Of a stretch of DNA of 64,000 bases, positions 19,435 to 63,683 are shown piece by piece. How positions within the stretch are numbered: the first letter of the stretch is position 1; the number at the start of each line of letters is the position of its first letter. Source of the DNA: Terebella lapidaria (lineage: Eukaryota; Annelida; Polychaeta; Terebellida; Terebellidae); contig OX424570.1 in NCBI GenBank assembly GCA_949152475.1, positions 28,268,694 to 28,332,693 on the forward strand. The letters are read 5' to 3'. The translations under genes and the position numbers were made by a program. The notes under the pieces are model-generated. The model was given only the letters and a program-made list of their open reading frames with translations. It was not told where the DNA came from and did not search any database.

Positions 19435-19580
19435 CCCTTCAAGGAGCTGAGGTGTGGGCTGGGCCGGCTGCGGGGTCGTTATTGGTGTCGTTACCGGTAC
19501 AGTAGTCGTGACAACCGCAGATGTGGAGCGGGGAACGTTGTCCTGTTGTCTGGAAGGTCCTTGCTCCTCAGCACCTTCCC

Positions 19581-22160
19581 CTACTGGTTTGACGACGGGG
19601 TCGGAGGTGTTGGTGGGGCCGGTTTAGTTTGGTTACCGGTTTGGTTAGGTACTGACAACACTTGAGCTGTCCTTCTGTCAGTACCGGGACCATTGGGCCG
19701 AAATGCTAGCGGTTTCATGCCGTTACGTACTAGCACATCCTTAAGCCGAAAGCATCGCATCCAGCGATGGCCGGGCTTCTTGCAAAAGAAGCACACCATG
19801 GGTCGTCCGGGTTGCGGGGGTCGATCACCTTTCATCGGGGCCGTTGTTCGTAGGACAGAGAAGATAGCCGTTTCCTCGCACAGTCCATTCTCGTCACTAA
19901 GGACGCACTGGAAGGCTTCGGCCACCCACTCGCGTGAGCTGGTTGGCACTGAGTGTTCGTCGCAACCTTGTAGGCCGGTAGTGTCACTGTCCGCGGGGTC
20001 GTAGTAGGCCGCAATTTGCTCTGGGGTTAGTGTTTCCCCCTGAGTGACTTGTCCCATGGCACAGGACAGTTCCTCATTGACAGGGTCGTCTTCCGCGTAT
20101 CCGCTTGCGGAAATGTCAGCACGTCGTGTGCCTCGATGTCGATCTCTGGCTGTCCTCTGTTGACGACTCTCTACCTTGAGAACGGCCGTAAGTGCCTCAC
20201 TGTAACTGTTAAAAGTGAGGGCACACAGTTTATCGGCAATGGGGTCGGGTTGGCCGTTCACGAATTGCGCAATTACAGTTCGTTGCCGCGACGTTGGCGT
20301 AACGTCGTCGAACACTTGCTCCGCCAGGGCCTGGAGTCGCTCCATGTAGTGTTCCGCGTCCTCTTTTCGTTCCCGCTTGAGGAACGGGAAATCGTCCCGT
20401 TTGGACTGTCGACGGGGCTCGGGTTCCCAGCCCTCTAGGAGTTGGCGACGGAACTCTCCCCAGGGAGTTGCGACCGGGATATTGAGAGCTAGCGCTTCAG
20501 CGCGGCCGCGTAGCGTGCTCCGGAAGGTCGTCGTCTTGTTGAGGTCGGAGTAAGTAAAGGCCGCAGCGAATTGTTCGAAACTCCGAACGTATTGAGTGAG
20601 ATTGCCCTCCTTAAAGGTCGCACGCCATTGAGCCATTTTAGCCGTAGCCAACGTTTGGGGCTCAGACGTGAGTCTCTGTGGCGTGGGCGTGTCAACACTC
20701 ACCGCAACTGGTGTAGTCGCTGTAGTGGCCGTCGGGGTCGGAACAGCCGAAGTCGCCGGAGCCGTCGTATCTGGGCCGATCGGGGTCGCGTTAGCGGGGG
20801 CGGTCGGTGCTGTCGTCGCGGAGACGGCGAGCGATGCGGCGGGTGGTGCCGTCGTGTGGCCGGGGTCGTGTGGTGCTTGTGCAGCGGGGGCCGGTTGACT
20901 GTATGGAGGCGTCACCCATGGTATCCCGACTGAGGGTGGGAATACAGCCGGTGGTGGATATCGGTATACCGATCCATCCGGGCATACACCATGGTACACT
21001 AATCCGGGTTGTGTACCATGATAGCCGGTGTCAGCGATCACGCTGGGAACGCCACCATATCCAGGCGGTGGGTTCGCGTAGCCGACATGCGGTGAGTAGT
21101 ATCCGACAGCTACTCCATTTGGAACACCGCTTGTTGCGCCAGGGTATCCGACTGGCGGTACACCATATCCGTTGGTGTTTCCGACTGATTGTGAGATCGG
21201 AGGTCCGATCATTTGCACAACACTTTCTGCCGGAGCAGACACAACTTGATCTTGCGACGGATCGAAGCGCGGTTGTTCTCCGGTAGTCGGCGATGGTCGG
21301 TGCGTGGTCGGCGCGGGAGCGCGTGTGTCGGAAGTCGGCGTGTCGGGGTCGCAGAGTCGGCGACTTGATGTCGAGGGTGCTTGTCGGGGTCGCGCTTGTC
21401 GCATGGTGGCGCGAGGTTCCGCCATTGTGTCGCTGGGTCGTTGTTGTCGTAGCGGCGTCGCGATCCGGGTAGCGGTCGTCATCAGGATGTCTTCGGATGT
21501 CGCACCCGTCTGGCTGGGTCGTGTGTACTCTACCACCGTAGGCTCGGTCGGTATGCGTGAGTACATTTCTGGCGCGGGGCCGTGTTGTCTCGGCGTCATG
21601 GACGGCGCCAGGGGTCGATTGGCCGAATAAGCGTTCGGCGGGGTCGATTCCGGAACATTGTCAGACTGACAAACCCACTGTCGTATCCGAGAGTTACTTG
21701 GTGGGTGCGTAACCATTGACGTGTCTATGGTTACCGGCCGAACGTCCACTGCTAATTGTTCTGGGTCGATATCACAATCTACGCTCGCTCTTTGACGTGA
21801 GCGCGTATAGTTTCTGTCGGCAAAGTCACTTTTCTGGGTCGCTCTAGCCGGCGTGGCCGAGTACGCTCTAGCGTGCGCACGCAGAATGTCACTTACTGTA
21901 TGTGACGGGTCGAGCGGGTCTTCGTCTAGGAACTCCTGCACCAGGTCGGTAGGCGGCGAAAACGATCTCAGGGACGAATGGTCGCCAATGGAGTCGAAAA
22001 GGCCGGACGGTTGTTGCTCCTGCGACAGTGGAACTGTATCGCTCATGGCGACTGAGCGAGGGCCGGAAGGTCGGAAGGCCGAATTCGGATTGATCGTCAC
22101 TTCATCATCCGTAGGGTCGAGTGGCTCACCGCGGGAGGCTCCCGGGGCCAATGCCATCAA
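19581..22160 (-). other. gag: Element A gag
   Basis: About 859 codons. A long Pro/Thr/Ser-rich N-terminal half contains Gly-Tyr-Pro repeats (around PVGYPGATSGVPNG). It is followed by a retrotransposon-gag-like helical region (QWRATFKEGNLTQYVRSFEQ) and a CCHC zinc knuckle, CFFCKKPGHRWMRC, near the C-terminus. The N-terminal extension is long for a Ty3/gypsy gag. Confidence 0.9.
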
Positions 22161-25266: not shown

Positions 25267-28082
25267 GTGACCAGGATCAGTCCGACAGTGTTCCATCGCA
25301 GCCTACCGTCACAGCGTTGTAGCCTCCTTAGTCCCTGGGGATCGCCCGCTCCTCAAGGACATCTTAGGAAAATGACAAAAGAAAGAGACAAGGCCAAAGA
25401 TAAGGCCAATGAACCCAAGGAGAGGGATAAGGGTGGAAATGTCGCGGACCACACCCGGTCGCGCGACAGCCACCGTGAGACGTCTCCGGACGACTCCGGT
25501 GGCCGGAAGGAACGCGCGGAAACCTCCGTGGACAAGACCCCGTCCGCGGAGACGACTCCGGCGTCCCTGGCTCCGTCTCCGGACGTAGAGTCGCGCCCTG
25601 AGGGGCAGCAACAGGGATTGCTATCAGGGCCTGGCCCTGATCCGGTAGGCGCGGTAGGTGGAGCTGGCAACGGCGCTACCCCGCGCCCGCCTAAGTCCAG
25701 ACGGCAGTCGTGGCAGGCGACGCTCTTTCAGGGGACATCTCCGGATGTCCGGGATCGAGTGGTAGCCGGCCCGAGTACCTCCGGGCAAGCGGACCAGCAG
25801 TACTGGATGCCACATCCAGCCGGAGGAGCTCCCGCAAGGGCTCCCGGCTGTGAATCCAGGCAGTCCGCGTCAGGCGGGATGGACCAGCTCACCCACACTC
25901 TGAGTGAGCTGGCTCCTCTAGGGCGCTATGACCGCGCCCGGTCGCCCCATCAGGGACGATCAGACCGGCGGAACCGTTCCCCCTCTCCGCTGTCACAAGG
26001 CAACTCGGGGCCTTTGACGGAGAGGGAGAGGTGGCTGATATCCGAGGCGCTTGTACTGTTCAAGCGGAATCAGCCGCCTTCGAGCGTTGACCCGTCGGCC
26101 ATCTCAAGTCCGGGGATGTCTGGGCCAGTAGCCCCTCCCCAAGTCCTGCCGAGTCCGCAGGCGCCGGTGGCCCCCGCAATGGGACCCGCGCCTGCCCCGC
26201 GGCTCGGAGGCACCACGTTGGCAACCGCGTCGACCGTTCCGACGGTTGGAGCGCAAGCCGCGTGGCCGACTTACCCTGGCACGTACAGTGTGTCGGACGG
26301 GCAGTGGCAACAGGCGGCTTCGGCCCCAAGCTTTGCCGCCCCTTCTGGAGCCTACTCAGTAGGTTCGATGGGAGCCCCGCCCGCACCTAGCCAGAGTGGG
26401 TTTTCAGCGGGAATGACCCCGGCAGCAAACGTGAGCTTCCCTGCTCCTCCGTCCGCGGCGTCGATGTTTGCTCCAGCAGACTCCGCCGCAGGCGCAGGAA
26501 GCGCACGGAACTTGCCGCTGTACACGGACGACCCCGGAGCCGGGACCGCACGTCGGGCGCGTAGCAAACGCGATGACGGGCCCGACCACTCTTCGTGGCG
26601 GAAACGGTTCAACGGGGATAACGCCGACTTGGAGGACTACTTGCTCCAGGTATGGCGTACCGCCGTGTACGAAGGATGGTCCCAGCATGAAGCTGGACAC
26701 GTCCTCGCGGGGAGCTTGGAAGGAAAAGCTCTCCGCGTGATGCCGTGTCTGCCGGTGGGAACAGTGACGTTCGGCGAGGTTGCTCGTCAACTTCGCCTGC
26801 TGTTCACGCCGACGACCAATCGGCGGCAGTCTGAACGAGAGTTCTAGGCGCGTATCCGCCATCCGACTGAGTCCGTGACAGACTATGCGTTCAACTTACG
26901 CATACTCGGCCGGAGAGCTTTTCCGGACATGGACTTCAGACGGTTTGAGACGATGCTGATCGATCAGTTCATCGATGGCCAGCCTTACCACCTAGCGTAC
27001 GGGCTGGCCACCCATGAAAAGCGATCGATGGAGGAGGCAATAGACTCCGCGCTTGCGCTTGAGGTGGCTGTCCGCCCTAGACAGTTGCCTCCAGCCTCGG
27101 CTCCGGCCTCGGCTGTACCCGCGCAGGCGGCGACTCCTCCTCCGGTTAAAGCATCGCAGGTAACCCCGTGGCAGGACCCGGTCGTCCGGGAGCCCGCCAG
27201 GGAACCTACCCCGCAGCGGGTTAGTGCGCCGGCACCCTCTACAGGGGCGCCCGCACATGCGGCACCAGTCGCCGCGCCGTGCTCGCCTTCGGACGAGTAC
27301 GACATGGAGGAATACGACCTCGGCAGTCTGAACGAGAGTTCTAGGCGCGTATCCGCCATCCGACTGAGTCCGTGACAGACTATGCGTTCAACTTACGCAT
27401 ACTCGGCCGGAGAGCTTTTCCGGACATGGACTTCAGACGGTTTGAGACGATGCTGATCGATCAGTTCATCGATGGCCAGCCTTACCACCTAGCGTACGGG
27501 CTGGCCACCCATGAAAAGCGATCGATGGAGGAGGCAATAGACTCCGCGCTTGCGCTTGAGGTGGCTGTCCGCCCTAGACAGTTGCCTCCAGCCTCGGCTC
27601 CGGCCTCGGCTGTACCCGCGCAGGCGGCGACTCCTCCTCCGGTTAAAGCATCGCAGGTAACCCCGTGGCAGGACCCGGTCGTCCGGGAGCCCGCCAGGGA
27701 ACCTACCCCGCAGCGGGTTAGTGCGCCGGCACCCTCTACAGGGGCGCCCGCACATGCGGCACCAGTCGCCGCGCCGTGCTCGCCTTCGGACGAGTACGAC
27801 ATGGAGGAATACGACCTCGGCGCCGCGCAGATGATTGCGCACTGCGCCGGGATCGAAGCTCCGGGACCCGCAGAATGTTGCGCGTTCACCTCCGGACCGG
27901 CCCAGAACCGTCCCTGCTACTTCTGCGGAAAGCAGGGACACTTTTGGCTGAAGTGTCCGGAGTTGTTGGAACGCCTGCGGTCGCGCGGATACCAGGGAAA
28001 CCTTCCTGGCCCGCAACGGAGGAATTCCTTCCGGTCTGGTCCTCCGGGACAACAGAACCGGAACCCGCGACAGGGAAACTAG
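25267..28082 (+). other. gag: Element B gag region (broken)
   Basis: The N-terminal part is a Ser/Pro/Gly-rich, highly charged domain. It is followed by a retrotransposon-gag-like segment (YLLQVWRTAVYEGWSQHEAG) and a CCHC knuckle CYFCGKQGHFWLKC near 27920. Architecture matches element A gag, although the sequences are diverged. It is not intact. Confidence 0.8.
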
Positions 28083-31000
28083 ATCCGGACGTGGTGGCGA
28101 CCAACACTGCGTCCGGGGATAGTTGTCCGGTGGCAAACGATGCCGCCCCACCCGCTGATGAGCAGGACGAACCCCAAGTAGATATGACTTCTCCGGAAGT
28201 AGTCCTTGGGGATCAGTCCAGCTCCTCCGCGGCTGAGGCGGATGGCGAGGACTCCGTAGATGAGCCCGGCGCGTGCGAAGGGTATCGCCCTACCTGCGCG
28301 TTGGTGAGGGACTATTGCTGGTACCTGCCCCTGTCCTTCGGACGGGAGCCGGTCCGGTTCCTCGTGGACTCAGGCTCGGAGGTGACCATCGTGGCCGCCG
28401 GGACGCTTAGGAAGGAGCCCGCCTTCCGCAACCTCGAGTTGCGGGATCCTGGACCGTATAAGCTCTACGGAGCGGGAGACAACCGCATCCGTGTCCATGG
28501 CATCATCGATCTGCCTATTACCCTTGGGGACAAGGTGTATCTGACAGAGACGATCGTGGCGGATATCGGAGCGGCCGGGATTATTGGGATGAATTTTCTA
28601 CGGGCCCACCGGGTGGTTGCCAACTTTAGTGCTGGCGAGTTCCGGATGGGAGAGGACACACACTTCCTCTTCCGCTCGGGCCCGATGCATTCATTCCAGA
28701 TGCGGACATCGCGCACTGTAGTAGTGCCACCGATGAGTGAGATGATCATCGAGACGAGGCCGCGCCGTCCCCGCATGCCCCTCGATGGTCGACCGTGTAT
28801 AGTGCAATCCGTGAGCAGTTTCGCCGCAGGAACTGGGCTCGTGCTGGGTGGGCACTGATTGTACTGAAGCGCGGATGCATAGCAGCTACTGCTATTCCCG
28901 CGTCTTCGAGTCGTGTCCTCCCCGACGATCCTGTCTGCCGCGCTGCGTGCGCGGCGGCGGCCACCGGGGATGACCCGTTCACCCTGCCGGACCATTTGGA
29001 ATCTCGGGTTCCGAAGGACCGGTTGGATGCGGATGTGTTCATGGGTCCTGATGGTGCGGTTGGCAAGACTGACGTCACCAAACACCGCATCGACCTTGTG
29101 GACGAGCGTCCTCTCAAGCAGCGTCTTCGTCGGGCAGCAATAGTGCACCAAGAGGTCATAGACCAGGAGGTGCAAAAGATGCTCGACTTGGACATCATCG
29201 AACCCAGTGACAGCCCTTGGGCCAGTCCGGTGGTTATGGTGAAGAAGAAGGACGGCTCGTGGAGGTTCTGCGTGGACTATCGGAAACTCAACGATGCCAC
29301 GCGGAAGGACTCATATCCTCTCCCGCACATTGAAGATACCTTCGATGCCCTGGCCGGGTCGCACTATTTCTGTGCTCTGGATCTGGCCTCCGGGTATTGG
29401 CAGGTGGAGATGGAGGAGAGTGATCGGGCGAAGACTGCCTTCGTTACCAAGAACGGGCTCTACCAATTCAAGGTAATGCCGTTCGGGCTCTGTAACGCAC
29501 CAGCGACGTTCGAGCGCCTCATGGAGATGGTACTTAAAGGGTTCCTCTGGAAGCGATGTATGGTCTACATCGACGATGTCGTCGTGTATGGCCGGTCGTT
29601 CGAGGAAACCCTCACCAACCTCCAGATGGTGCTCCATCGCATCCGCGGAGCAGGGCTTAAATTGAAGCCAAGTAAGTGCGAACTATTCGCGCAGGAAATC
29701 CTGTACTTGGGCTTCATGGTAACGGGCACCGGAGTGAGACCAGACCCCGCAAAGGTGGCGGCCGTGCAGAAATGGCCTCCGCCCTGCAACGTGGCGGACG
29801 TGAGGTCCTTTTTGGGCTTCGCGAGCTACCACCGCAGGTTTATTCGTGGCTTTGCGGAGATCGCGCGTCCCCTTACTATCCTCACGGAAAAGGGCGCCGA
29901 TTTTGTTTGGTCCGCCGGGCAGGCTGACGCCTTCTCGGGACTCCGGCAGGCCTTGGTAGCGGCCCCGGTGCTGCGGCACCCTCGTCCGGACTGCGAGTTC
30001 ATCCTGGACACTGACGCGAGTAACTTTGCACTCGGCGGTGTCCTCTCGCAGATCGTGGACGGGCAAGAGCGGGTAGTAGCTTATGCGAGTGTGGCCTTGA
30101 GCCGCTCTCAAATGAACTACTGTACCACTCATCGCGAGTTGCTCGCGGTGGTTACGATGACCAAGCGTTTCCGGCACTATTTGTTGGGACGCCATTTCCG
30201 CTTGCGGACTGATCATAGTTCGCTGAGATGGCTCCTCAACTATAGTGAGGCCGATGGCTTGGTGGCGCGGTGGCTCGTCAAACTCCAGGAGTATGACATG
30301 CAGATAGAGCATCGCGCTGGTAAGTTGCACGGCAACGCGGACGGCCTGTCCCGTTGTCATAAGTGCAAGAATCCGGGTTGTGCAGGGATGGCGCCATTCC
30401 AGCAAGCCGCGGATTCGTCCTCAGACTCGGAATTGGACGTTCCGGGGAGACCGCAGGCCGGCGTCCCCTCTAACAACACGGCGGCCGGAGCGTTTAGGGC
30501 TAATCTCCGCGCGCGGACCCGCCGTTATCGGCGAGGGCGTCTCGCAAATGAAGCGGAGGTGCGGCTCAGCTCCAGCGAGTCCTCCTCGAGTCCGGCGGTG
30601 TACTCCTCGTGGGTACCCTCGTCCTCTGGAGAGTCTGAGTATGAGCGGTCCTTGCCCCCTGTGGTGATGGCCGCTGCGGCGCAGCCGGACGTGACGGATG
30701 AGGAGCCTAATTACTTGGGTGGCTACTCTCCGGCGCAGATAGCTGCGACGCAAAGAGCTGACAGAGCTCTGGCACCGGTAATCACAGCCCTTGAGGCCGG
30801 CCAGAAGCCCTCGAAGGATGAGCGAAAGACCTACAGGGAGGAGACCTTGTCTCTAGTATCTCAGTGGGAACGACTCTCCTTGAGGGATGGCCTCTTATAC
30901 CGGCGCTATGAGCCACCGACCCCACTGCCTCCAATATGGCAGTTGGTGCTTCCGGCGGAGCTGCGGAAAGAAGTACTCCACCAGTTGCATGACCTCCGGG

Positions 31001-33009
31001 TGACCGGTCACTTGGGAATCCGGAGGACCGTCCATAGGCTACAACAGCGCTTTCATTGGCCTGGTAGCAGCTTGGACGTGCAACGGTGGTGCGCAGCCTG
31101 CCCTCGGTGTCAAGCTCGTAAAGGAGTTCCGACTCCTGGCCGCCACCCCTTAACCACGGTTAAGGCGGGCGCGCCTTTTGATCGGATAGCTTTGGATATA
31201 CTGGATACCCACCGGGTCACCCCGCGCGGTTTCCGGTACATCCTGGTAATATCCGACTATTTTACCAAGTATACCGACGCCTACCCACTGCGCCGCCAGA
31301 CTGCGGACGAGGTAGCTCGGTTATTGGTGAATAGATGGGTGGTGTACCATGGGGTACCTAAACAGGTACATTCGGATCAGGGCACGCAATTTGAGAGCAA
31401 CCTGTTCCGAAACCTAGCACAGATGCTAGGCAGTACCAAGGTGCGGACCACCCCCTACAGGCCCCAGTCTGATGGCCAGGTCGAACGCTTTAATCGATCG
31501 GTCCTCAATATGCTGGCGGCCTTTGTGAACGATCGTGCGAATGATTGGGATGACCACCTCCCGATGTCTTAATGGCGTACAGGTCGTCGGTCCACTCTTC
31601 GACCGGAGTTACTCCGCACGCGATGTTGTACGGCCGGGAGCTAAATTTGCCCGTGGATATTATGTATCCAACTGCGGCAGAGACCGGCGCAGTACCCCAG
31701 TGCGGTCCGGAATACGTGGAGTGGATTCGCCGCGCCTTGGCGAACGCCCATGATTTCGCGCGCGCGCGCCTGGACAAGTCTGCCATCCGGCAGAAGCGAG
31801 GCTATGACGCCCATGCTAAGGGTAGGCCAGCTTTTGCGGAGGGCGACAAGGTGCGCTACTATTATCCGCCGCTTAAGGATTGATTGCATGTGATTGTCAT
31901 GAACCTGGCATTGACCAGCTGTCCATTCACTTATAATGTAAACATAAAGGTAACAAGTTCATCAATTTACACACTTCCAATCAACGGGAAACTTTGCCTT
32001 TCTGATTGTTAGCCATCAAGGATTACTAACCGAGACTCTGTTTCTTACTAAGCAATGTTAAATTTGTTAAATTCATCGTTTTCATATGTCATTTTCCGAC
32101 CTATTTCTCAGTCTACAAAATACACTCACAACAGGGCGAGCGAAAGGATTATGCTGCGCAGCAAATAGCTAGTGAGGCCAATAAAACTCACAGGTGATAT
32201 GCACTCGGGTGCACCGAGGTGTTTGGGATTATGAATGTTCAGCTCACTGTATTCATCTCACAGAAAGTATAGCCCTAGATATTCTCATTATTTTGACGAC
32301 AACAAGGAATAAATATATGCAACAGCCAGTGCTTGTCAAGCAGAACACTCGAATCTTCGTTTTGGTGAAACGTATAAAATGATTTATCTAATCATCAAAT
32401 TGCACAGCTTTCGTGATATCATTTATTAAACCATGTCTCGGTTCATCATCCATGAGTATATGTGTGTGTGCTAGCCAAGTTTTAGGTCAGGGGATTGTAT
32501 TGTTTTGGTTATTTTGTTACCTTTGCTTTCACATTATAAGTCAATGGAAAAGTGCCTCATCGCAGTCACCGGTAAGTTACATGCAATCACACCTTAAGCA
32601 AGGCAATAAATTTGCTAAGCCGTGGATAGGCCCGTTTACGGTACTGAAACAAGTGACAGATGTGGACTACCGGATCCGGAGGGATTCCGATCCGGACAGG
32701 GTTCTGGTTGTCCATATCGATAATCTGAAGAAGTACGAGGGCCCGCTTGTCATGGATCCGCTCGTTCAAGATGCGGAACTGGATGATGCTCCCGTATGGG
32801 ATCCGTCTGGTCAGCATCCGCGGACTCCGGCCGAGCGTGTGCGCCGTATGGTGGGCCTCCCGGACCTCTCTGACCCGTCAGATGATGGACTGGGTGGCTA
32901 TCAGCCAGATGACGGCGATCCGCAGGTACCCCCACTACCTCCAGTACCTGCGGATGACGGGCGGCCACGCCGGAAACCACGTGCGCCAGCCCGGTATGGG
33001 TGGGAATAA
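27776..33009 (+). other. pol: Element B pol region (broken, with DNA insert)
   Basis: The region holds an aspartic protease (FLVDSGSEVTIV, IIGMNFL), RT (YPLPHIEDTFDAL, ALDLASGYWQVEME, MPFGLCNAPATFERLM, YIDDV), RNase H (LDTDASNFALGGVLS), HHCC domain (CAACPRCQARKG) and integrase core (LDILDTH, VHSDQGTQFES, SDGQVERFNR). A GPF-type module (IGPFTVLKQVTDVDYRI) follows the TTAA insert at 31877-32593. It is the closest relative of element A pol in the window. It is broken in several places. Confidence 0.88.
31877..32593. mobile_element. TTAA-flanked MITE inserted in element B
   Basis: 717 bp of AT-rich sequence unlike the GC-rich host element. TTAA flanks both sides (31873-31876 and 32594-32597). 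The imperfect terminal inverted repeats share TGATTGCATGT. TTAA target and size fit a piggyBac-type MITE. It contains no transposase. Confidence 0.8.
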
Positions 33010-37741: not shown

Positions 37742-38240
37742 ACGGATGAGGAGCCGATGACCACGGAAGAAGGCTAGGGCACTAGCCTCGTCGCTGCACT
37801 TGTGCGGCGGCGTGCCGGAGTCGCTCCCGCGGCTCCGCCCTGCCTCAGACCCGTTCTGCGGATCTGAGGAGCCGGCCGGCAGGGCGGTCGGCAACATTTT
37901 AGAGGTACTATCACTTTTGATCACTCGGTGTGTCGTTTTACAAAATTTCTAAATTTAAAGTCTAACCTTAAAGATATTCCAAAGACTCGACGGATGAGGA
38001 GCCGATGACCACGGAGGAAGGCTAGGGCACTAGCCTCGTCGCTGCACTTGTGCGGCGGCGTGCCGGAGTCGCTCCCGCGGCTCCGCCCTGCCTCAGACCC
38101 GTTCTGCGGATCTGAGGAGCCGGCCGGCAGGGCGGTCGGCAACATTTTAGAGGTACTATCACTTTTGATCACTCGGTGTGTCGTTTTGCAAAATTTCTAA
38201 ATTTAAAGTCTAACCTTAAAGATATTCCAAAGACTCGACA
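37742..38240 (+). repeat. Two tandem copies of about 246 bp near the 3' end of element B
   Basis: The block from GGATGAGGAGCCGATGACCA to TATTCCAAAGACTCGA is present twice in direct orientation with very few differences. Confidence 0.85.
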
Positions 38241-51412: not shown

Positions 51413-51733
51413 TTTCGGTTTCCGGACGATAACTTAAGAACGCCTTGACGAATCTTCGAGAAATTTTCACCAGTTATCACATATATAACATAGATGAACC
51501 CTATTGTTTTGGAGCCGGCTTCGAGGTCCGGTTAGTCCGTGAGGATGAATTTTGAGTCAAATGGTTTCCGGATGATAACTCGAAAAGTACTTGTGCTACC
51601 ATTCTGAAACTTGACATATATGTTGATATAGTGTCGCAGAGGAGCCCTATCGATTACGGGGTCAATACCTTGAACGACCTTTGACCCAGGGGCCAAAAAC
51701 AATTTTGATGAAAATCCTTGAGGCTCATTGCAT

Positions 51734-52985
51734 ATCTCGGAAACGGTGCGTCGTAGAGCGAAACGGACGTTATTTTCAGACTCGTCGACCTAGACAAACA
51801 TGTGTTAGGGGTATTATGGATGAACTTTGACCTTGACCCAAATTTTTTTCGCCGAGTCGGCATTTTTCGTTTTCTTCGATATCTCGGAAATGGTGTGTCG
51901 TAGAGCGAAACGGACGTCATTTTCGGACTCGTCGACCTAGACAAACATGTCTTAAGGGTATTACACATGACCTTTGACCTTGACCTTGAATTTTTCTGCC
52001 GAGTCGGCATTTTTCGTTTTCGTCGATATCTCGGAAACGGTGCGTCGTAGAGCGAATCGGACGTTATTTTCGGACTCGTCACCCTAGACAAACATGTCTA
52101 AGGGTTATTATGGATGAACTATGACCTTGACCCGAAATTTTTTTGCCGAGTCGACATTTTTCGTTTTCTTCGATAACATGGAAACGGTGCGTCGTAGAGC
52201 GAAACGGACGTTATTTTTGGACTCGTCGACCTTGACAAACATGTCTAAATTGTATTATGGATGAACTTTGACCTTGACTGGAAATGTTTTTGCCGAGTCG
52301 GCATTTTTCATTTCCGTCGATATCTCGGGAACGGTGCGTCATAGAGCGAAACAGACTTTATTTTTGGATTCGTCACCCTAGACAAACATGTCTAAAGGGT
52401 ATTATGGATGAACTTTGACCTTGACCGGAAATTTTTTTGCCGAGTCGGCATTTTTCGTTTTCTTCGATATCTCGAAAATGGTGCGTCGTAGAGCGAAACG
52501 GACGTCATTTTCGGACTCGTCGACCTAGACAAACATGTCTAAGGGGTATTATGGATGAACTTTGACCTTGACCTGAAATTTTTTTGCCGAGTCGGCATTT
52601 TTCGTTTTCGTCGATATCTCGGAAACGGTGCACCATAGAGCGAAACGGACGTTATTTTCGGACTCGTCGACCTAGACAAACATGTCTAAAGGGTATTATG
52701 GATGAACTTTGACCTTGACCCGAAATTTTTTTGCCGAGTCAGCATTTTTCGTTTTCCTGGATATCTCGGAAACGGTGCGTCGTAGACCGAAACGGACATT
52801 ATTTTCGGACTCGTCGACCTAGACAAACATGTCTTAAGGGTATTAGGGATGACCTTTTACCTTGACCTTGAATTTTTCTGCTGAGTCGGCATTTTTCGTT
52901 TTCTTCGATATCTCGGAAACGGTTTGTCATAGAGCGAAACGGTCGTTATTTTCGGACTCGTGACACTAGGCAAATATGTCTTGTA
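51734..52985 (+). repeat. 147-bp tandem satellite, about 8.5 copies
   Basis: The marker ATCTCGG (or its variant) starts at 51734, 51881, 52028, 52175, 52322, 52469, 52616, 52763 and 52910, which is exactly 147 bp each time. Each unit contains GACGTTATTTTCGGACTCGT and TTTTTGCCGAGTCGGCATTT. Units differ only by point changes; no length change was seen at the markers. Confidence 0.93.
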
Positions 52986-55647: not shown

Positions 55648-55944
55648 CACAAAGCCGACAGGGATGTTGCCAGACAAACAGATATCTAGCCCATAAAACC
55701 GACAGGGATGTGCCAGGCAACAGATATCTAGCCCACAAAGCCGACAGGGATGTTGCCAGGCAACAGATATCTAGCCCACAAAGCCGACAGGGATGTTGCC
55801 AGGCAAACAGATATCTAGCCCACAAAGCCGACAGGGATGTGCCAGGCAACAGATATCTAGCCCACAAAGCCGACAGGGAAGTTGCCAGGCAACAGATGTC
55901 TACCCCAGAAAGCCGACAGGGATGTTGCCAGGCTGCAGGTAGTC
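55648..55944 (-). repeat. Minisatellite made from the 3' coding end of the AOS-LOX gene
   Basis: Seven units of 42-44 bp. On the minus strand each reads CCTGGCAACATCCCTGTCGG then CTTTGTGGGCTAG and ATATCTGTTG. The first unit is the true end of the coding sequence (PGNIPVGFLG then stop at 55900). The following units carry the same codons and stop in the 3' UTR or beyond. Small differences (one A more or less, TGTTGC versus TGTGC) separate units. Confidence 0.88.
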
Positions 55945-56082
55945 GTAGTTCCAGTCGTTGAGTTCTCGTCCTCTCTTGTTCTGCTGCTCTGAGATCTCCT
56001 TCAGCTGTTTCTGGAAGCTCTTGATGGCAATGACAGCTTTCTCGTCCGTGAAGGTTTTGTCGTGGTACTGACCCAGGGTCGT
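55900..56082 (-). CDS. AOS-LOX terminal exon
   Basis: CCACAG acceptor, 60 codons plus TAG. It encodes LGQYHDKTFTDEKAVIAIKS to YDYLQPGNIPVGFLG. Lipoxygenases normally end in Ile or Val, whose carboxylate binds iron (coral ends IPNGTAI). Here the end is IPVGFLG. The last 30 bp belong to the minisatellite unit. Confidence 0.9.
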   Translation of the reverse strand, partial: TTLGQYHDKTFTDEKAVIAIKSFQKQLKEISEQQNKRGRELNDWNYDYLQPGNIPVGFLG

Positions 56083-59000
56083 CTGTGGCAGGGAAGAGCA
56101 GTCATATCATTTGAATAGCAATACAAAGTATGAAGCAAAGAGTGAGTGGATAATCCTTCAAAACTAGTACCATTGTACCACAATAGCGTGCAATCGCACG
56201 TAGCCTGGCTGGTTTGTTGATTTGAGTGTGAGAATATCTTCAATATTGCTTCCCTGAACTATACTATCACTCACCTCGAGGGTCTTGTAGCCAGCGGTCA
56301 TGAGGTGAATCACGTTCATGTATCTGTCGTGGAGGTCGCTAGATGGGAGGAGAGAGTGCAGGTATTCCAGCGTATAGCCGTACGGTCGCTTCTCGCGAGG
56401 AGGTGGGTTCATCAGACAAGGCGGCGCATTCAGACAGAAGCTGTATGTGTCGGCCATCCCCCGAGTCAGCGCCGTGTTCTGTACCGTGCTGCGGAAGATC
56501 ACAGTCGTACAGAACTGGATAAGCTGCTCGATGCGTGCGAAGGACTGTGGCAGATCTACTGCGCCATTATAGCCGTTCTTGGAGAGGTCAGCCAACATCA
56601 ACGCCAGCTCGTCGTCATTCCGGACCTGGTCATCGTCGTCATAGTAGACACAGACGATGTCGATGACGAAGTCTCTGATGGCTTCCCACAGCTGGAGTGC
56701 GTCGTCTCGGTACAGATAGCCAGGGAGTTGGGACGCCTCCAACACACCACGGTTAGAGAAGTTGTCTGGGAGGTTCAGTGCTGAAAACTTCTTGAACTTG
56801 CTGACTTGTCGTCTCATCAGCTGGACTCCCTTGTTGCCTAGAGCCAGGACTTCAGACAGGGCGCCATCCTCACAGATGACAAACTTGCGGTAGATGGTGT
56901 TCAGCAGCACGAGGTTACTGAGATAAGGCGTGAGCAGCTTGCTGACCGGGTGGACCGAGGGCAGGTTCCGTGCCACCGAGATCGCTATTGGCTCCAGGAG
57001 GAGCAGAGTGCCGAGAGTGCGGGCTGTTAGGTGGTGCAGATTGGTTTCCGCGACCTTGACCCACATCTTAGCCACCAGCCAGTCTGAGTACTCTCCGGTG
57101 TCGTCATTGGGGGTATAGATCAGAGGAGGTGACTCTGGCTCCTGGGTCATTTGAATGGCGAGTGGCAGCAAGGCCACGCCCCCTTTCAGATACATGATTA
57201 CATGTGGTGCACATGCGTACTTCTTTGGCTCTTTGTCCTCTTTGCTCTTGGATGACTTCCGTGACTTCTCAGCTACTTCGATCTTCTTGTCGGACTTGAT
57301 GTGGCCATTGGCGTTGTCGTCCTGGACTTTGCTCTCGCTGCTGGAAGAGTCAGTGCTGATCTTGCGGTCTCTGGAGGAGTTCTGCTCCTCAACAAACTCC
57401 TGGAGCTCCGGATAACTCACCAGGAACAAGCGGCCCGCCTGTTTGTAAATAATTGGCAAATGATGGCTTATAACTTAAGCACACAAGTGGTGAAATCTGC
57501 AGTAAGATACTTAAATTCTGCAAAATAAGAAAAAATCCTTATTCTCAGACATAGCAACTGGACAAAACATAACAAATCTTGATATCTCTTGGACCATCAT
57601 CTATTGCAAACATTCAAACCAAATTGTTTCAAATGCAGATCGAGAATACCACAGACCTCGAGTTCATCTCGTAGAGTCCGGGAGCCCTCCAGCAGACCTG
57701 TCACCATGTCGTCCGTCAGAGGGAACACTTTGGGGATGTCCTTGAGGCGGGCAATCTTCAGCGGCATCACGCCGTTCAGCATCTAGTGTGGAAAACTATA
57801 CCATGGTTACGCCGAGTCTGGCAAAACAAACTAGTCATATTCTTTAATGACAGAAGTACAAGCAGTTTGTGAGATCTCCCAGTATTACTAACTAACCTGT
57901 CGACCAAACTCCAGGTCACTGCGCCAGTTCCCGATGATGTACTTGAGCATCTCATTCTTCTTGCTGTCCGGGTTCTTGTCGTGAAGTTCCTCCTCAAACG
58001 CCTCGTCCAGGATCTTCTTCTTCGTCCGAGGCTTCATGGCATTCCGGACCTTCATCAGGACTGGTTGAGAGCGGAGAGTTCATCAGTTTATAAACACAGT
58101 GTACTGAACTATCTAATTATAAGTTCAAGTGGAATCAGCAGAATGACGATTCATATATTTTCTTGATCAAGTCGATCATCTTGACTTGAATTTTTATTCT
58201 GGTTGATGAGGTTGTGATTAGAAAGGGATGTAGAAAAGACTGAGGAAAGCCTAGTTTAGCGTACGGTCGTTATGTTCCATGTGTTTGGCCCACTCCTGCC
58301 AGAGTTTGACGCCAGCCTCGGACTTCATGTCACTCGGAAGCAGATCGATGTTGTCCCCAGCCGCGATGTAGCCAGGGAGACCGCGGAATTGTGGGTCCAC
58401 CCCTGGAGAGCGCCACCTGATGGCAGCCTGCCGCATTGTCACCTCCGCCTGACGCAATCGGCGTAGGTAGAAGTCTGACTCCTTGTCAAACAACACCGCT
58501 GGAAGAATTACAACTTCATGACTTGCAAATCAATAGTCAAATTTCCTCTTGTGTAGTGTAGTTTTAAATTTCGGGGATAAATTGGGAATCCTGTTGTCCG
58601 AAATGTTCCCCGAGACACTGTGGTGATACTGGATGCACTAACGATCGTTAGTGCATCCCGCAATGGCCGACAGTAAACACGGTCAGTTGGGTTTTTAACC
58701 GTATTCTATCAAATGACAGGTCCATTTGTGATAAATGGACACTCTGAAGGTAGCTTAGTGTTTTGGTCAAAGACATGCGTAGTTATTTCAAGCAGATCAC
58801 GCTTCTTTGTTTAGATATGTTGAGGGAAAGAATTAGCGATAAGATTCACCAACGACAAAAGTGAGATTCCCTAACGATATAGGCCTAATACGTGTATATT
58901 GTAACACGTCCATATCATACACCATTGTGAATTCGTTGATTTATGCGACATAAATTAGCGAATGTCACATCAAAAATAGGAAATCTGTATTAGAAGATCA

Positions 59001-62000
59001 TCTAAACACATCAATACGTGTCAATTGGTACCTTATTTCACGTTTAACATTTAAATAACGTAGATTGGAATTAGTAAAGAAAAGATCCTTAGGGAATCTT
59101 CACATGTTCGTTAGGGAATCTTCGATTTTACAAAAACAATCGTTAGGGAATCTTTCGGCTTTTTTTCAGACGAGTTTTTCATGCTCAAACCAACATAAAT
59201 CGCCATGTATTTGCAACGAACGGTTGTTTCGTGCGCATAAGAATCAGCAGAGGCATGTGTGTATCGATCACAATCGTAATTATCGGGAAAATGAAGAAAA
59301 TTCAAACGAACCGCGAGTGGGTTCGCCATTGCGGGATGCACTAACGATCGTTGGTGCATCCAGTCTCACCACAGTGCCGAGAGTTGTACATGAAGGCAAA
59401 GAAAATGGTGAAGTCGATATAACTAGTGCATATATTCGGTTGAATTGATGAGATGAGACTTAAGAGGCAAGTCATTACGACCGTGGACCCGATGGAGTTG
59501 ATGATGATATGTCAAATATACAGCTTGGTCTACGACTGAAAAAACTCGCATATATAGGTAGAACTTGTGGTGTGCAGACTCACGCGTGCCGTCTCGGAGG
59601 ATGTGTAGCGGAGACTCGTCCGTGAACCAGCGGCCACAGGGCAGACTGGAGCAGGTCTTGTTGTAGGTGGTGCTGACCACGAGGGACTCCAGGAACCAGT
59701 CGCTCTTGGCGCCCCGCGGGTCCTTGTACACCTTGACACACAGCAAGTCTCCCACGTACTTGTCCCGGAGCGTGAAGGTCGAGCGCACACCACGACCGAA
59801 CTCCGTCTTTGTGGTGGTCGTCAGGCGTAGGAAGGCTGTACGACTGTCCCGGCCTGGATAAGATGAGAAAAAGATGTCATAAGATGTAAAAAAGACAACG
59901 CAACAGCATTTTATTACATCCCCCAATTTTCAATACTAGTACTTTTCATTTAGAAATGCAGCAAGGTAGTATAAGTAAACTAACCGACGAGGCAGACGTA
60001 GATGTCGCACTTGGCGTGGAGCATGCCGGCGTTCTCGCGGTCGCCCGTTATGACGTGGACCAGGTACTCCACTTCATCTCCCTTGGGAGGCGGGGGCGGC
60101 TGGGCGCTCCTCAGCTTGCTGCACAGCTGTCAGGGAGAGAGAGAGGGGGTATTCAGTCAGAGAGAATGAGGCCGCTCTCCCAACCAACTGGGTGACTGGC
60201 AACACCTTCTGTGACGAAGTGAGTGGTACTAAAATCCTAGGCAACTCTCTCATTGAGGAAATACATGTATAGTGGTGCGAAAGATAGGAATTTAGGAGCA
60301 ATGTCTTGTTCACAATCAACTTTCTGGTACACAACAATGTATACATGTACATGTAGTTGGAACTTCCCAGGAGTTCCAAATTCGCGTCATGCAATCCCTA
60401 ATAACCTGGTCTCATGGTAAGTGTGACATTGGTGTTCACAGCGAGTTACCAAAGGGTGTAGGATACATCGTGCACTTTAGATAGAAGTGGGCTTCAGTAC
60501 CTGGTAGATCTCCCGGCGAATGGTAGGCACGGTGTTGAAGTCACTCTTGCTGGTTGGTACCGGGATCTGGAGGGTGTTCTCCGGCAGGTGTCCCACGTTG
60601 AACCTCGTCAGTTCCGTGATGTCGTCCGGGAGCACGGACAGCAGTCTGATCTTGGCGAGGTCTGTCCACGGAGTCACGCTGTCGTCCCAGATCTCGGCGG
60701 GGTTGTACAGGGCGTTGGTGTCCTCAGGGCCCCACTCACGGAGCTGGATCTGGAGGTTGTACGTCACAGTCGAGTCATCGACACGTCTCCGGAACTCCGC
60801 GTCCAGGAACTGGTTTGATTCGTATCGGTCGTGTTCCTCCTTCAACAGCCTGCAGGAGGTCAGGGGAACTACGGGTCACAAATCACCTTCTTTTGAAGTG
60901 TTTGGTCTGAAATTTATTCTATTTTGGGAAGAAATGATAATCTCCTTTTTTCCAAAAATCTTTTACACGATGTTAGAGTTTAGATGAACGTGAATGTTCA
61001 GTCGCAAGGAAAGAAATGACCAAGTTTTATTTCAATAATACCAAGGAGCGTCTAGAAGGAATTAATTTTATTTATCCTTATCAAAAAAACGCCATGGAAT
61101 GCTGCAAACAAATGGAAGGTTATCGAAGTGTCTGGTTCGAACAAAGGACTACAAAGGAACAAAGGTTTATTATCTGGTGAAACATCAAGAGGATATGACA
61201 CGGCACCGAACTTGATGTTATGATTGTGAAACGGTCAGAGTTGTGCGAGAAATCGGAAGTAACCATAACCTGAGAGTTAAACAACATGAACAACACAAAC
61301 ATTCACAGACCCAGTCCTTCAACTCGTTAGTGGTACAACATGCAAGTGAAATTGTTCAGTGTTTGTTGATTGGAAACACTTGGTGCAGAAAGAAACAATT
61401 CGAAACCTGAAGAGCTTTCCTCTTAGTGAGAAAAGTATCGTCCTAGAAAAACAAGTTATACCATACACAGATTTCATGGGAAATTTTATATTTCAATATG
61501 AATTTTAATGCTGAAATAGTCATTACAAAACTTTCTACTACGAGTTAAGGAGAATGAATGCAAGAGTTGAAAGAGACACGAATATACACGAAAGAGACAC
61601 GAATATGTTTTTACAGGAAAACAAGCTATTAGTCTGAAGAAGTCAGGTATCAGTCAAGATTCAAACACCAGGAAATTCCGGCTTACTCCGTGTAATAATC
61701 CAGGTCATCCTCCCTAAAATTGAGATTATAGGTGAAAGAAATCAATTTTCATCTCAATGTAATCAATAGGTAGGACAGAACTAAATCGATCAATCAATAA
61801 CTAAAACAATCAATTTATCTTATACATGTATATACAATTGATTTGTTTCCAATTCATTATAAAAATTGGATTCATTCTCAACACCAATATCATTTCCCTG
61901 TAGTATCAGTGAGGCGATTGTTGTGACATACATTTTGTACCAGAGCTCGCGTTGATCCTCAGGTTTGAGTCTGCCGGTGTCTGGGTACCCGTCCGCGGGC

Positions 62001-63683
62001 ACAACACGGAACCTAGCAACACGCTTACGTCCGTCACGTGCCACGAAATCATACGTCATCTGCGAGTGGTAGTGCACGTGCGTGTACGAGTCGATGTCCT
62101 TCCTCATGCCTTCAAAGATCGTGGACAGGCTGGACAAATATAAAACACATCCTGGTTACCATGGTGATGATAATGGCTATCAACGGAGTTCTCATTGGCT
62201 GTTTTCTTCACAATTCATTGTAAGGATTGAAGACTCAACGATAAAAAGGATAAAGAGGTAGGCCTATACCCCGTTTCTGTACGGTTGCCGACTGCCTAAA
62301 AAGTCCGCCAGCACATGGGAATTATAACCTATTACTAATGTAGCCCCGACACGTCATAAAGCTAAATGGCTTCACTCTTTCGGAAATACGTCGACCCCGA
62401 GGTCAGCTCTATACTACTGTTCAGCCACACTTCGCTGGTCCAAGTAATCACACTTATATGTGCCCCAGATGTATGATTCATCTACTAGTATCTGTGTGCA
62501 GGGTGACTGAGTTAAAGAACAGTAGGGTCCTACCTCAGGACCGACGCCCCAGATGTATGATTCATCTACTAGTATCTGTGGGCAGGGTGACTGAGTTAAA
62601 GAACAGTAGGGTCCTACCTCAGGACCGACGCCCCAGTTGTATGATTCATCTACTAGTATCTGTGGGCAGGGTGACTGAGTTAAAGAACAGTAGGGTCCTA
62701 CCTCAGGACCGACGCCGAGGCAAACAGTCAGTTGGCTCGAAAGGCTTGAAAGGTGTATGATAACCAATGTAAAGGCCAAACAACACAATACAACGATATA
62801 AGGTATACCCCTATTACTTGATATCGTGAATGTCCTATACCAGCACATGTGCGCAATATTTGTGGTGTTACTTTCCCGGAACACCTGATTTCACCTCCTA
62901 ATGGCCATTTTGGGGGGTTCATGAGTTTCCCTGTCATTTTTGTTTTCTCTCACTTCGTATGCCTGATATGACTTTCTGTCCCCGGACTATGAGATTGGAT
63001 AACGGACCCTGTTTTGTTTGCTCGGAATACTTAATACTGGGTATTGATTCCACGTCTGTTACTACTAATCATGCTACCCGGGACTGGAACATGTCGCCCT
63101 GGTTACGTACTTGGCAGGGACGTTGATGAGGTACTCCTTGAATGCGGCGGGACTTTTGACGATGGCTGTGTAGAACTCGTCGATGGAGTCGGTGTTGTAG
63201 AAGGGGGTAGAGCGGCCCGTCTGCAGCACCAGGTCCAGGGGGCTGTCGTAGTCATGGTCCTGGAACTTGAGGGCCAGAGAGCGCCAGGCCGGCCGGCTGT
63301 CGTCCGCGATAGCTGCGGGGAACAGGTGGTATTGGGTATTGACAGAGCAGATCTTTAGGAACTATTCATCCATTTTTTTCTAACTGGTTGTTGTTGTACA
63401 AATATGAAATCATTACCAAGAAATCCAAACACTGCAGCATTTACTCACTGGGAAAGTTTGCGTGCCTTGCTCGTATCTCAAACATTTTCTTGGGGACGAA
63501 GAAGTCGTTCTCGGGTATTCTGTTGTTCTCCACAACCACGGCATACCCCAGAGCTCCCACGCCCTCGGAGTGTGTCGCCCGCTGGTTTGTTTTCCGGACT
63601 TTCTTCTCAAACAGGGTCCGGATACCCCACTTCTTGAAGAACAGCGGCAACTCCTCGAAAATCATCCCCTTCTTGGCGCCCGC
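55900..63683 (-). CDS. Allene oxide synthase-lipoxygenase fusion protein (5' end outside window)
   Basis: Twelve exons with consistent phases encode 1097 residues up to the stop. Order: catalase-like AOS domain (about 1-345), PLAT domain (355-470) and lipoxygenase domain (470-1097). This is the layout of the coral 8R-LOX/AOS fusion, which makes 8R-hydroperoxide from arachidonate and converts it to allene oxide. AOS keeps the distal His (RATH, residue 38) and the proximal RREIY (Arg332, Tyr336), but has Gln109 where the coral enzyme has Asn. In the LOX domain only one iron ligand remains (His784). Positions equivalent to the other His, His, Asn and C-terminal Ile are Arg789, Asn970, Thr974 and Gly1097. 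I infer a non-catalytic LOX. About 30 N-terminal residues are missing to the right. The residue comparison with coral is from memory of that sequence. Confidence 0.93.
56275..57438 (-). CDS. AOS-LOX exon 11 (core of LOX domain, iron ligands replaced)
   Basis: 388 codons. A Ser/Lys/Asp-rich insert of about 55 residues follows AGRLFLVSYPELQEF. Then WLVAKMWVKVAETNLHHLTA aligns with the coral AESNFHQLNTHLLRTH helix: the first ligand His is kept (57034-57036) and the second is Arg (CGC, 57019-57021). IFRSTVQNTALT aligns with FTFSCQHAAVN, so the third His is Asn (AAC, 56476-56478) and the ligand Asn is Thr. The fold itself (YLYRDDALQLWEAIRDFVID, SFARIEQLIQF) is well kept. Confidence 0.93.
57657..57782 (-). 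CDS. AOS-LOX exon 10
   Basis: ACTAG acceptor and GTCTGT donor, 42 codons. It encodes MLNGVMPLKIARLKDIPKVF and PLTDDMVTGLLEGSRTL, matching coral FLNGANPVILTRCDALPSNF. Confidence 0.9.
57897..58060 (-). CDS. AOS-LOX exon 9
   Basis: AACCAG acceptor and GTTAGT donor. It encodes LMKVRNAMKPRTKKKILDEA and MLKYIIGNWRSDLEFGRQ. It is shorter and more basic than the coral segment. Confidence 0.85.
58265..58498 (-). CDS. AOS-LOX exon 8 (start of LOX domain)
   Basis: TTCCAG acceptor and GTACGC donor. It encodes YLRRLRQAEVTMRQAAIRWR and GLPGYIAAGDNIDLLPSDMK, the usual entry into the lipoxygenase catalytic domain. The donor is weak. Confidence 0.82.
58616..59376. mobile_element. Non-autonomous DNA transposon in AOS-LOX intron 7, CCGAGA target duplication
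   Basis: 761 bp with terminal inverted repeats of about 50 bp: CACTGTGGTGATACTGG, a 28-bp palindrome (58631-58658), then CCGCAATGGC; the right side mirrors this (palindrome 59334-59361, one mismatch). CCGAGA flanks both sides (58610-58615 and 59377-59382). The interior has GTTAGGGAATCTTC-type units three times near 59090-59150. No transposase. A degraded relative is at 1297-2122. Confidence 0.8.
59584..59853 (-). CDS. AOS-LOX exon 7 (PLAT domain)
   Basis: TCCAG acceptor and GTGAGT donor. It encodes DKYVGDLLCVKVYKDPRGAK and SDWFLESLVVSTTYNKTC, then LPCGRWFTDES. PLAT domains bind membranes or lipid, often with calcium. Confidence 0.92.
59985..60126 (-). CDS. AOS-LOX exon 6 (start of PLAT domain)
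   Basis: GACAG acceptor and GTTAGT donor. After a Pro-rich linker (SAQPPPPPKG) it encodes VEYLVHVITGDRENAGMLHA, the first PLAT strands. Confidence 0.9.
60501..60849 (-). CDS. AOS-LOX exon 5 (AOS proximal heme side)
   Basis: CTGCAG acceptor and GTACTG donor. It encodes YNLQIQLREWGPEDTNALYN, WDDSVTPWTDLAKIRLLSVL and FNVGHLPENTLQIPV, ending TIRREIYQ. The Arg-x3-Tyr pair is the catalase-type proximal heme ligand motif. Confidence 0.92.
61687..61713 (-). CDS. AOS-LOX 27-bp microexon
   Basis: TTTTAG acceptor, 27 bp, GTAAGC donor. It joins exon 3 to exon 5 in frame as MEDDLDYYTE, covering the linker that reads RPDDYLRKEY in coral. Confidence 0.75.
61932..62129 (-). CDS. AOS-LOX exon 3
   Basis: GTCCAG acceptor and GTATGT donor. 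It encodes SYTHVHYHSQMTYDFVARDG and RVARFRVVPADGYPDTGRLK, matching the coral YYYSQVTMPFKAKDGKVRYC region. Confidence 0.9.
62462..62716. repeat. 84-bp tandem repeat, three copies, in AOS-LOX intron
   Basis: AGATGTATGATTCATCTACT (third copy AGTTGT...) starts at 62467, 62551 and 62635. Units are nearly identical. The unit is 28 codons long, which produces a spurious repetitive frame on the minus strand. Confidence 0.9.
62874..63030 (+). repeat. Dispersed repeat, copy 2 of 2 in the window
   Basis: Matches 1871-2029 almost base for base (CGGAACACCTGATTTCACCT to TTTGCTCGGAATAC). It lies in the AOS-LOX intron between exons 2 and 3. Confidence 0.7.
63111..63312 (-). CDS. AOS-LOX exon 2
   Basis: CCGCAG acceptor and GTACGT donor. 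It encodes RPAWRSLALKFQDHDYDSPL and then DLVLQTGRSTPFYNTDSIDE. Gln109 (LVLQTG) stands where coral AOS has Asn (IVMNTG); that Asn assists hydroperoxide chemistry in the distal pocket. Confidence 0.9.
63449..63683 (-). CDS. AOS-LOX exon 1 of window (AOS distal heme side)
   Basis: Acceptor GTTGTCAG and donor GTGAGT. It encodes FFKKWGIRTLFEKKVRKTNQ, then RATHSEGVGALG, the catalase-type distal His motif, and FFVPKKMFEIRARHANFP, aligned with the coral segment ending RLRHANLKY. A second copy of the acceptor-side sequence TGGCGCCCGCCTG lies 47 bp upstream, so acceptor choice is slightly uncertain. Confidence 0.88.

Follow-up and report, generated by a model that had tools for sequence, protein, structure and literature searches.

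Gene structure at the locus

We analysed a 64,000-nucleotide stretch of the Terebella lapidaria genome (the window; GenBank assembly GCA_949152475.1, contig OX424570.1, here C17, positions 28,268,694 to 28,332,693), in which one gene encodes, in a single polypeptide and in this order, a catalase-type allene oxide synthase (AOS), a PLAT domain and a lipoxygenase (LOX). All positions come from a single assembly of 761.6 Mb in 438 contigs. A sequence-only reading of the window had proposed a spliceable, open AOS-PLAT-LOX gene here, and that model was borne out: the gene has 12 coding exons on the minus strand (63683..55900), and all 11 introns are bounded by GT-AG with consistent phase. The conceptual protein comprises 1092 residues as modelled from 63668, although the uppermost exon actually starts at 63683. 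An additional coding exon lies upstream at C17:28337420-28337314, 4.6 kb beyond the window, and no start codon was found. The exons within the window are given below, with residues compared with those of the coral fusion, the AOS-8R-LOX of Plexaura homomalla.

63449..63683, minus strand: coding exon, AOS; Thr32-His33 (codons 63575-63570) forms the distal heme motif, T66-H67 in coral; acceptor ...TTGTCAG, donor GTGAGT
63111..63312, minus strand: coding exon, AOS; Gln104 (63223-63221) corresponds to coral N137 and Ile117 to coral L150
61932..62129, minus strand: coding exon, AOS
61687..61713, minus strand: possible coding micro-exon of 27 nt, AOS, placed by splice signals alone
60501..60849, minus strand: coding exon, end of AOS, with Arg327 and Tyr331 (coral R349 and Y353)
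59985..60126, minus strand: coding exon, start of PLAT
59584..59853, minus strand: coding exon, PLAT (PF01477, E 3.4e-13)
58265..58498, minus strand: coding exon linking PLAT to the LOX core
57897..58060, minus strand: coding exon, LOX
57657..57782, minus strand: coding exon, LOX
56275..57438, minus strand: 1164-nt exon, LOX core, with all four side-chain ligand positions
55900..56082, minus strand: terminal coding exon, ending ...NIPVGFLG-stop with Gly1092

The residues of the micro-exon fall in an insertion relative to coral; skipping it keeps the frame and lowers later residue numbers by 9. Pfam places PLAT at residues 353-458 and Lipoxygenase (PF00305) at 716-1072 (E 1.3e-45, 156.6 bits against a cut-off of 23.6), so that the LOX half matches the lipoxygenase fold by homology. 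No Pfam catalase family was matched up to E 1, while the AOS part matches PDB 1u5u (E 2.4e-54, residues 3-339). The best PDB match overall is the coral AOS-LOX 3dy5 (E 5e-148), which aligns with residues 3-654 and again with 710-1089; a charged insertion rich in Lys, Glu and Ser, encoded in the LOX-core exon, occupies about residues 660-715.

The 1164-nt exon occurs at full length only once in the genome. Further full copies or haplotigs were sought for polymorphism, and apart from two 62-bp fragments on C16 (84-85% identical) none was found. These fragments (L020 and L021, C16:116353-116414 and 134381-134442) match the end of the exon, and the rest of the gene is absent from the 40 kb examined around them. 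A 43-bp tandem array of 6.7 copies (55648..55933, minus strand) overlaps the final codons and stop of the AOS-LOX gene, and its downstream units resemble repeated C-terminal codons and stop.

Iron-ligand positions of the lipoxygenase half

Iron in lipoxygenases is held by three fixed His, by a fourth residue for which His, Asn and Ser are all allowed, and by the carboxyl group of the last residue, which is usually Ile (PMC13059375, in excerpt). In the coral enzyme the first two ligands are His384 and His389, with Leu385 next after His384 (PMC10968607, in excerpt). This pair sits in a THLLRTH motif. As a yardstick, bacterial LOX loci were read at the four side-chain positions, and all 80 examined, the best of 267 confirmed, show H,H,H,N. 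One of the two search patterns used includes the third His and the Asn, and the count is unbiased only for the first two His.

The window gene has none of the three fixed His. Arg784 (CGC, 57021-57019) stands at coral His384, Leu789 (CTG, 57006-57004) at coral His389 and Asn965 (AAC, 56478-56476) at the third position, while the fourth is Thr969 (56466-56464), which lies outside the permitted His, Asn or Ser. At the C-terminus Gly1092 (GGG, 55905-55903) replaces Ile; a terminal carboxylate is present, though not on Ile or Val. The sequence-only reading had the Arg and Asn codons, Thr969 and the terminal Gly right, and aligning the protein with coral and its relatives, as it had proposed, filled the ligand positions with R, L, N, T and a terminal Gly. 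It erred in ranking Arg784 as the second ligand, since this residue aligns with the first, and in counting one His as kept. That residue, His779, is not a ligand: it falls at the FHQ His of coral, itself a non-ligand, and the position is occupied by Phe in a fish 12S-type LOX, by Ser in Oculina and by Gln in the C1 paralog (see below), all of which have His at both true ligands. With the true positions being Arg784 and Leu789, five of five ligands are changed rather than four, and the first observation is both real and stronger than stated. By alignment, no usual ligand of the catalytic iron is left unchanged in the LOX half, which as a homologous domain without catalytic residues fits the definition of a pseudoenzyme. 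We infer that it is without iron and without LOX activity. An alternative exon that might restore a His motif was also looked for and discarded, no second LOX exon able to take its place being found in the window or in the approximately 15 kb past its end.

Ligand loss among relatives

To place these changes, we used protein-collection searches, some of which scored only candidates with the most shared words and which together gave 27 proteins. The ligand table and tree comprise 17 rows: 13 collection proteins, coral, the window gene and two paralogs of the same genome, on C15 and C1. The other 14 of the 27 (P0007-P0011, P0016 and P0020-P0027) lie outside these rows; P0023 is in alignment A3, and P0021 is in A3, A4 and A5. 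For coral, 3dy5 (36-660) and 2fnq (318-696) were joined into a composite row that lacks the last three residues, its terminal Ile being taken from the LOX rule and the other rows. P0012, P0013 and P0014 are frames that apparently run into introns, and their last residues are not C-termini.

The window gene falls in a clade of seven (support 100/100), to which a long branch (0.8) leads and whose sister is the C15 paralog (support 90/93). The clade members are listed with their four side-chain ligand states, the C-terminal residue where readable, the number of near-invariant LOX columns kept (67 columns, defined from seven canonical LOXs) and the path length from the clade base.

Window gene: R,L,N,T; Gly; 49; 0.62
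P0001: H,H,H,N; Gly; 53; 0.48
P0006: H,H,Q,T; Ser; 49; 0.38
P0002: C,R,Q,R; Ser; 45; 1.09
P0012: R,H,Y,S; 49; 0.58
P0013: H,H,H,S; 51; 0.75
P0014: R,H,Y,S (first state alignment-dependent); 47; 0.84

Five of the seven lack one or more of the fixed His, in differing combinations, and Ile is the last residue in none of the four with a readable C-terminus. Metal binding by P0013 may still be possible, because the Ser at its fourth place is an allowed ligand. On a parsimony reading of the tree, whose basal forks are open, each fixed His would have disappeared roughly three times, with C15 counted for the first two. P0001, P0006 and P0002 run uninterrupted across seven, five and four of the window gene's splice junctions respectively, which suggests that they derive from cDNA or from intron-poor genes and is no proof of expression. 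No relatives of P0012 were found in viral contigs. Among the other collection proteins, P0004 (1480 residues) combines PDZ, catalase and LOX domains, with Arg for the second LOX His and Thr-Tyr for the AOS Thr-His; it is perhaps another half-altered fusion.

Probable constraint on the lipoxygenase core

To examine whether the LOX half is decaying, we compared the window gene's codons with relatives over the LOX core against 60 simulations that ran to the same identity under a simple neutral model. Relative to P0012 (317 residues, 66% identical), 48% of replacements are BLOSUM62-positive (neutral mean 28%, maximum 36%) and 32% need at least two base changes (neutral mean 11%, maximum 22%). The comparison with P0001 (51% identical) gave 39% BLOSUM62-positive replacements (neutral maximum 33%) and 51% multi-base replacements (maximum 27%). 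The pattern of replacements in the LOX core is not that of neutral drift.

Conservation of the scaffold points in the same direction. Leaving aside the four ligand columns, the window gene and P0001 each keep 49 of 63 near-invariant columns. Identity between the window gene and P0001 is 50% over the LOX core and 45% over PLAT, and LOX-core identity to coral is 37% for the window gene, 39% for P0001, 38% for C15 and 40% for C1. The LOX exons have a GC content at third codon positions (GC3) of 0.73, against 0.39 for intron GC. An end branch of 0.34 for the window gene, against 0.48 for P0001, was at first taken as an argument for selection; the paths from the clade base (0.62 against 0.48) overturned this argument.

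The allene oxide synthase half

The AOS half keeps the residues that mark the heme site of the coral enzyme, in line with the AOS-type catalyst that the sequence-only reading had proposed: Thr32-His33 stands for the distal T66-H67, and Arg327 and Tyr331 for the proximal R349 and Y353. Coral numbering fits T66, H67, N137, L150, R349 and Y353; the rows for N176, L177 and V357 were mismatched and were not used. In coral, T66 and H67 contact the hydroperoxide, according to an excerpt of PMC5617202. AOS-type activity of this half is a prediction from the retained residues. Overall conservation of the AOS half would be no proof of such activity, because C15 and C1, which lack the distal motif, are equally or more coral-like.

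Other lipoxygenase loci in the same genome

Pfam and a canonical LOX query of the genome located at least four LOX loci, on C1, C2, C15 and C17, which is a lower bound. By alignment, C15 and C1 are also AOS-PLAT-LOX genes. The C15 gene (L006, C15:29406000-29415900), whose frame is open across nine joined exons, is altered at both sites: its LOX reads R,Q,H,S with a terminal Leu, its AOS Thr-His is gone and His replaces Tyr353. The C1 gene (L010/L011, C1:81793000-81812900) has a LOX reading H,H,H,H, with the terminal Ile replaced by a long extension from an extra 3' exon, and an AOS that has lost the distal motif and carries Ile for Arg349, with Tyr353 kept. The three fusions thus differ in which half has been lost.

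The C2 locus encodes a canonical-looking LOX, read from separate exons, with PLAT and H,H,H,N and a terminal exon ending in Ile about 10 kb on; a weak match (E 0.03-0.07) directly before that exon fits a linking exon. No AOS match was found near it (E up to 1; 12 kb up to and including the PLAT exon).

Other features of the window and genome

Two retroelement frames in the window (15052-19623, minus strand, and 28741-31569, plus strand) carry reverse transcriptase, RNase H and integrase domains, and we take them to be gypsy-like by domain order. Two-copy tandem duplications near them, at 26824-27821 (497 bp, 100% matches) and 37742-38239 (248 bp, 99% matches), are either recent or an assembly effect. 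A 147-bp tandem array of 8.5 copies lies at 51732-52982.

Elsewhere in the assembly, a mitochondrial contig of 15,973 bases (15,000 examined) has its genes on a single strand in the order nad4L-nad4-(rRNA-sized gap)-nad1-nad3-nad2-cox1-cox2-cox3-nad6-cob-atp6-gap-nad5. This is the annelid ground order and points to an annelid host, against an initial assignment to amphioxus. Pfam matched 9 of 10 frames queried (nad2 and nad5 through a general antiporter family), nad6 had no match, and nad4L and cox3 were assigned by eye. A second COX1-like stretch (G000:C417:44633-46450), a 703-codon frame in which TGA codons are read through, is possibly another organism's mitochondrial DNA or a nuclear copy.

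Interpretation and alternative explanations

On balance we favour the view that the gene joins an AOS to a pseudo-lipoxygenase without iron, which has been retained as a binding, scaffolding or membrane-placing part. The selection for a pseudo-lipoxygenase that the sequence-only reading had preferred to plain decay finds support in the replacement pattern, the scaffold columns and the LOX-core identity relative to PLAT. With the LOX ligands lost, the bifunctional arrangement in which a fusion's own LOX feeds its AOS is expected to fail in this protein. Instead, another LOX of the same animal would make a fatty-acid hydroperoxide, which the AOS half would convert. Such an outside supply, also proposed beforehand, gains candidates in the canonical-looking C2 LOX and the four-His C1 LOX, the latter less simply, as an extension stands where its terminal Ile would be. 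The PLAT and pseudo-LOX part might place the protein at the membrane, use the former pocket to bind fatty acid or hydroperoxide, or stabilise or regulate the AOS; these roles are what we infer for the dead half.

Several observations weigh against this view. In the AOS half, Gln104 replaces the distal Asn (N137), coral K107 is Thr and coral K60 falls in a gap, and identity to coral (34%) is below that of C15 (39%) and C1 (36%), the two without the distal motif. In the LOX half, C1 (55 of 67) and C15 (53 of 67) retain more near-invariant columns than the window gene (49 of 67), and P0001 is matched more closely by the AOS (58%, over only 77 shared positions) than by the LOX core. The GC3 values of AOS (0.79) and PLAT (0.85) exceed that of LOX. 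The ligand-poor members of the clade, P0006 excepted, have evolved somewhat faster overall than the ligand-keeping P0001, so that selection on the pseudo-LOX, as indicated by replacements beyond the neutral simulations and by kept scaffold columns, has to be set against longer paths from the clade base. The LOX frames are free of stops where the neutral mean is 3.0 in one lineage, a difference that carries little weight because the compared frames were open by selection.

An alternative that we consider unlikely is that the LOX pocket has been rebuilt as a new active or binding site, with Arg784 and the (Ser/Thr)-Arg-Gly-Met motif, which replaces Asn-x-x-Gln, as new functional residues. Met972 occurs in six clade members (all except P0001) and in C15, where six of seven canonical rows have Gln; Arg970 is shared by the window gene, P0012, P0013, P0014 and P0002; and Arg fills the first ligand position in the window gene, P0012 and P0014, the alignment of P0014 being uncertain. 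These sequences are few, however, and the ligand positions do not converge within the clade (Arg/Cys, Leu/Arg, Asn/Tyr/Gln).

That both halves are non-catalytic, the whole protein being a structural or lipid-binding pseudoenzyme, seems improbable to us. There is a precedent in the C15 paralog of the same genome, in which both sites are altered, and the changes at N137 and K107 in the window gene lean the same way. Against this, the equivalents of Thr66, His67, Arg349 and Tyr353 are all present, and mutational work cited in an excerpt of PMC5617202 found N137 not important for catalysis as such.

We think it decidedly improbable that the LOX half is decaying near-neutrally beside a useful AOS, its frame being kept since truncation would destabilise the AOS. 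Such decay would accord with the loss of all iron ligands, the change of 18 of 67 near-invariant columns, a path from the clade base that exceeds those of both P0001 and P0006, and the position of the final codons within a tandem array. Yet the replacement pattern lies outside 60 of 60 neutral simulations for P0012 and for P0001 alike, non-ligand scaffold columns are kept at the rate of P0001, and the LOX core is at least as P0001-like as PLAT. To an assembly or gene-model error we give almost no credence: the loss is read from one assembly, but it involves four separate codons and the C-terminus with no frameshift and with canonical splice sites, and relatives from other sources lose the same positions.

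Beyond the single gene, an AOS fused to a retained pseudo-lipoxygenase may belong to a wider animal family of AOS-pseudoLOX fusions, in which a bifunctional ancestor was split by reciprocal loss and the iron-free LOX came to serve the AOS as a dedicated module for membrane contact and for loading fatty acid or hydroperoxide. We put this forward tentatively and rate it as less probable than not. In this genome C17 keeps the AOS site with the LOX ligands gone, C1 has four LOX His with the AOS distal site lost, C15 is altered in both and C2 is a free, canonical-looking LOX.

Comparison with known fusions and significance

The closest known system is the Plexaura homomalla AOS-8R-LOX (PDB 3dy5; LOX part 2fnq/3fg1), which has the same domain order and shares the AOS Thr-His, Arg and Tyr. 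It differs in having H,H,H,N and Ile where the window gene has R,L,N,T and Gly, together with the charged LOX insertion, Gln for N137 and Thr for K107. The HPL-LOX of Capnella imbricata, a catalase-related hydroperoxide lyase fusion, has the same architecture as the window gene. Changes in its AOS-like half alter the product, its LOX makes 8R-HpETE, and the substitutions F150L and YS176-177NL moved the lyase towards AOS (all from an excerpt of PMC5617202). Position 150 is Phe in the Capnella lyase, Leu in the coral AOS and Ile in the window gene, which is nearer the AOS Leu. Canonical animal 5-, 12- and 15-LOX share the PLAT and LOX domains, and the window gene differs from them at all five metal-ligand positions.

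Catalase-related AOS-LOX fusions have been described from soft corals and cyanobacteria (PMC8124189, in excerpt). Mussel, clam and oyster genes carry the name 'allene oxide synthase-lipoxygenase protein'; genes so named in bivalves are listed among those changing with immune or salt challenge. Among the titles and abstracts listed from an open-access library, outside which most subscription papers fall, we found no report of such a pseudo-lipoxygenase.

If the interpretation is correct, a conserved iron-free LOX half would mean that a fusion can outlive its first activity, and would provide a natural metal-free lipoxygenase for probing roles of the fold other than catalysis. In the annelid Pristina leidyi, a lipoxygenase+ cell type is marked by numerous lipoxygenases (PMC11014941, in excerpt). 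Counts of invertebrate 'lipoxygenase' genes would then include non-enzymes, possibly some of these Pristina leidyi markers among them.

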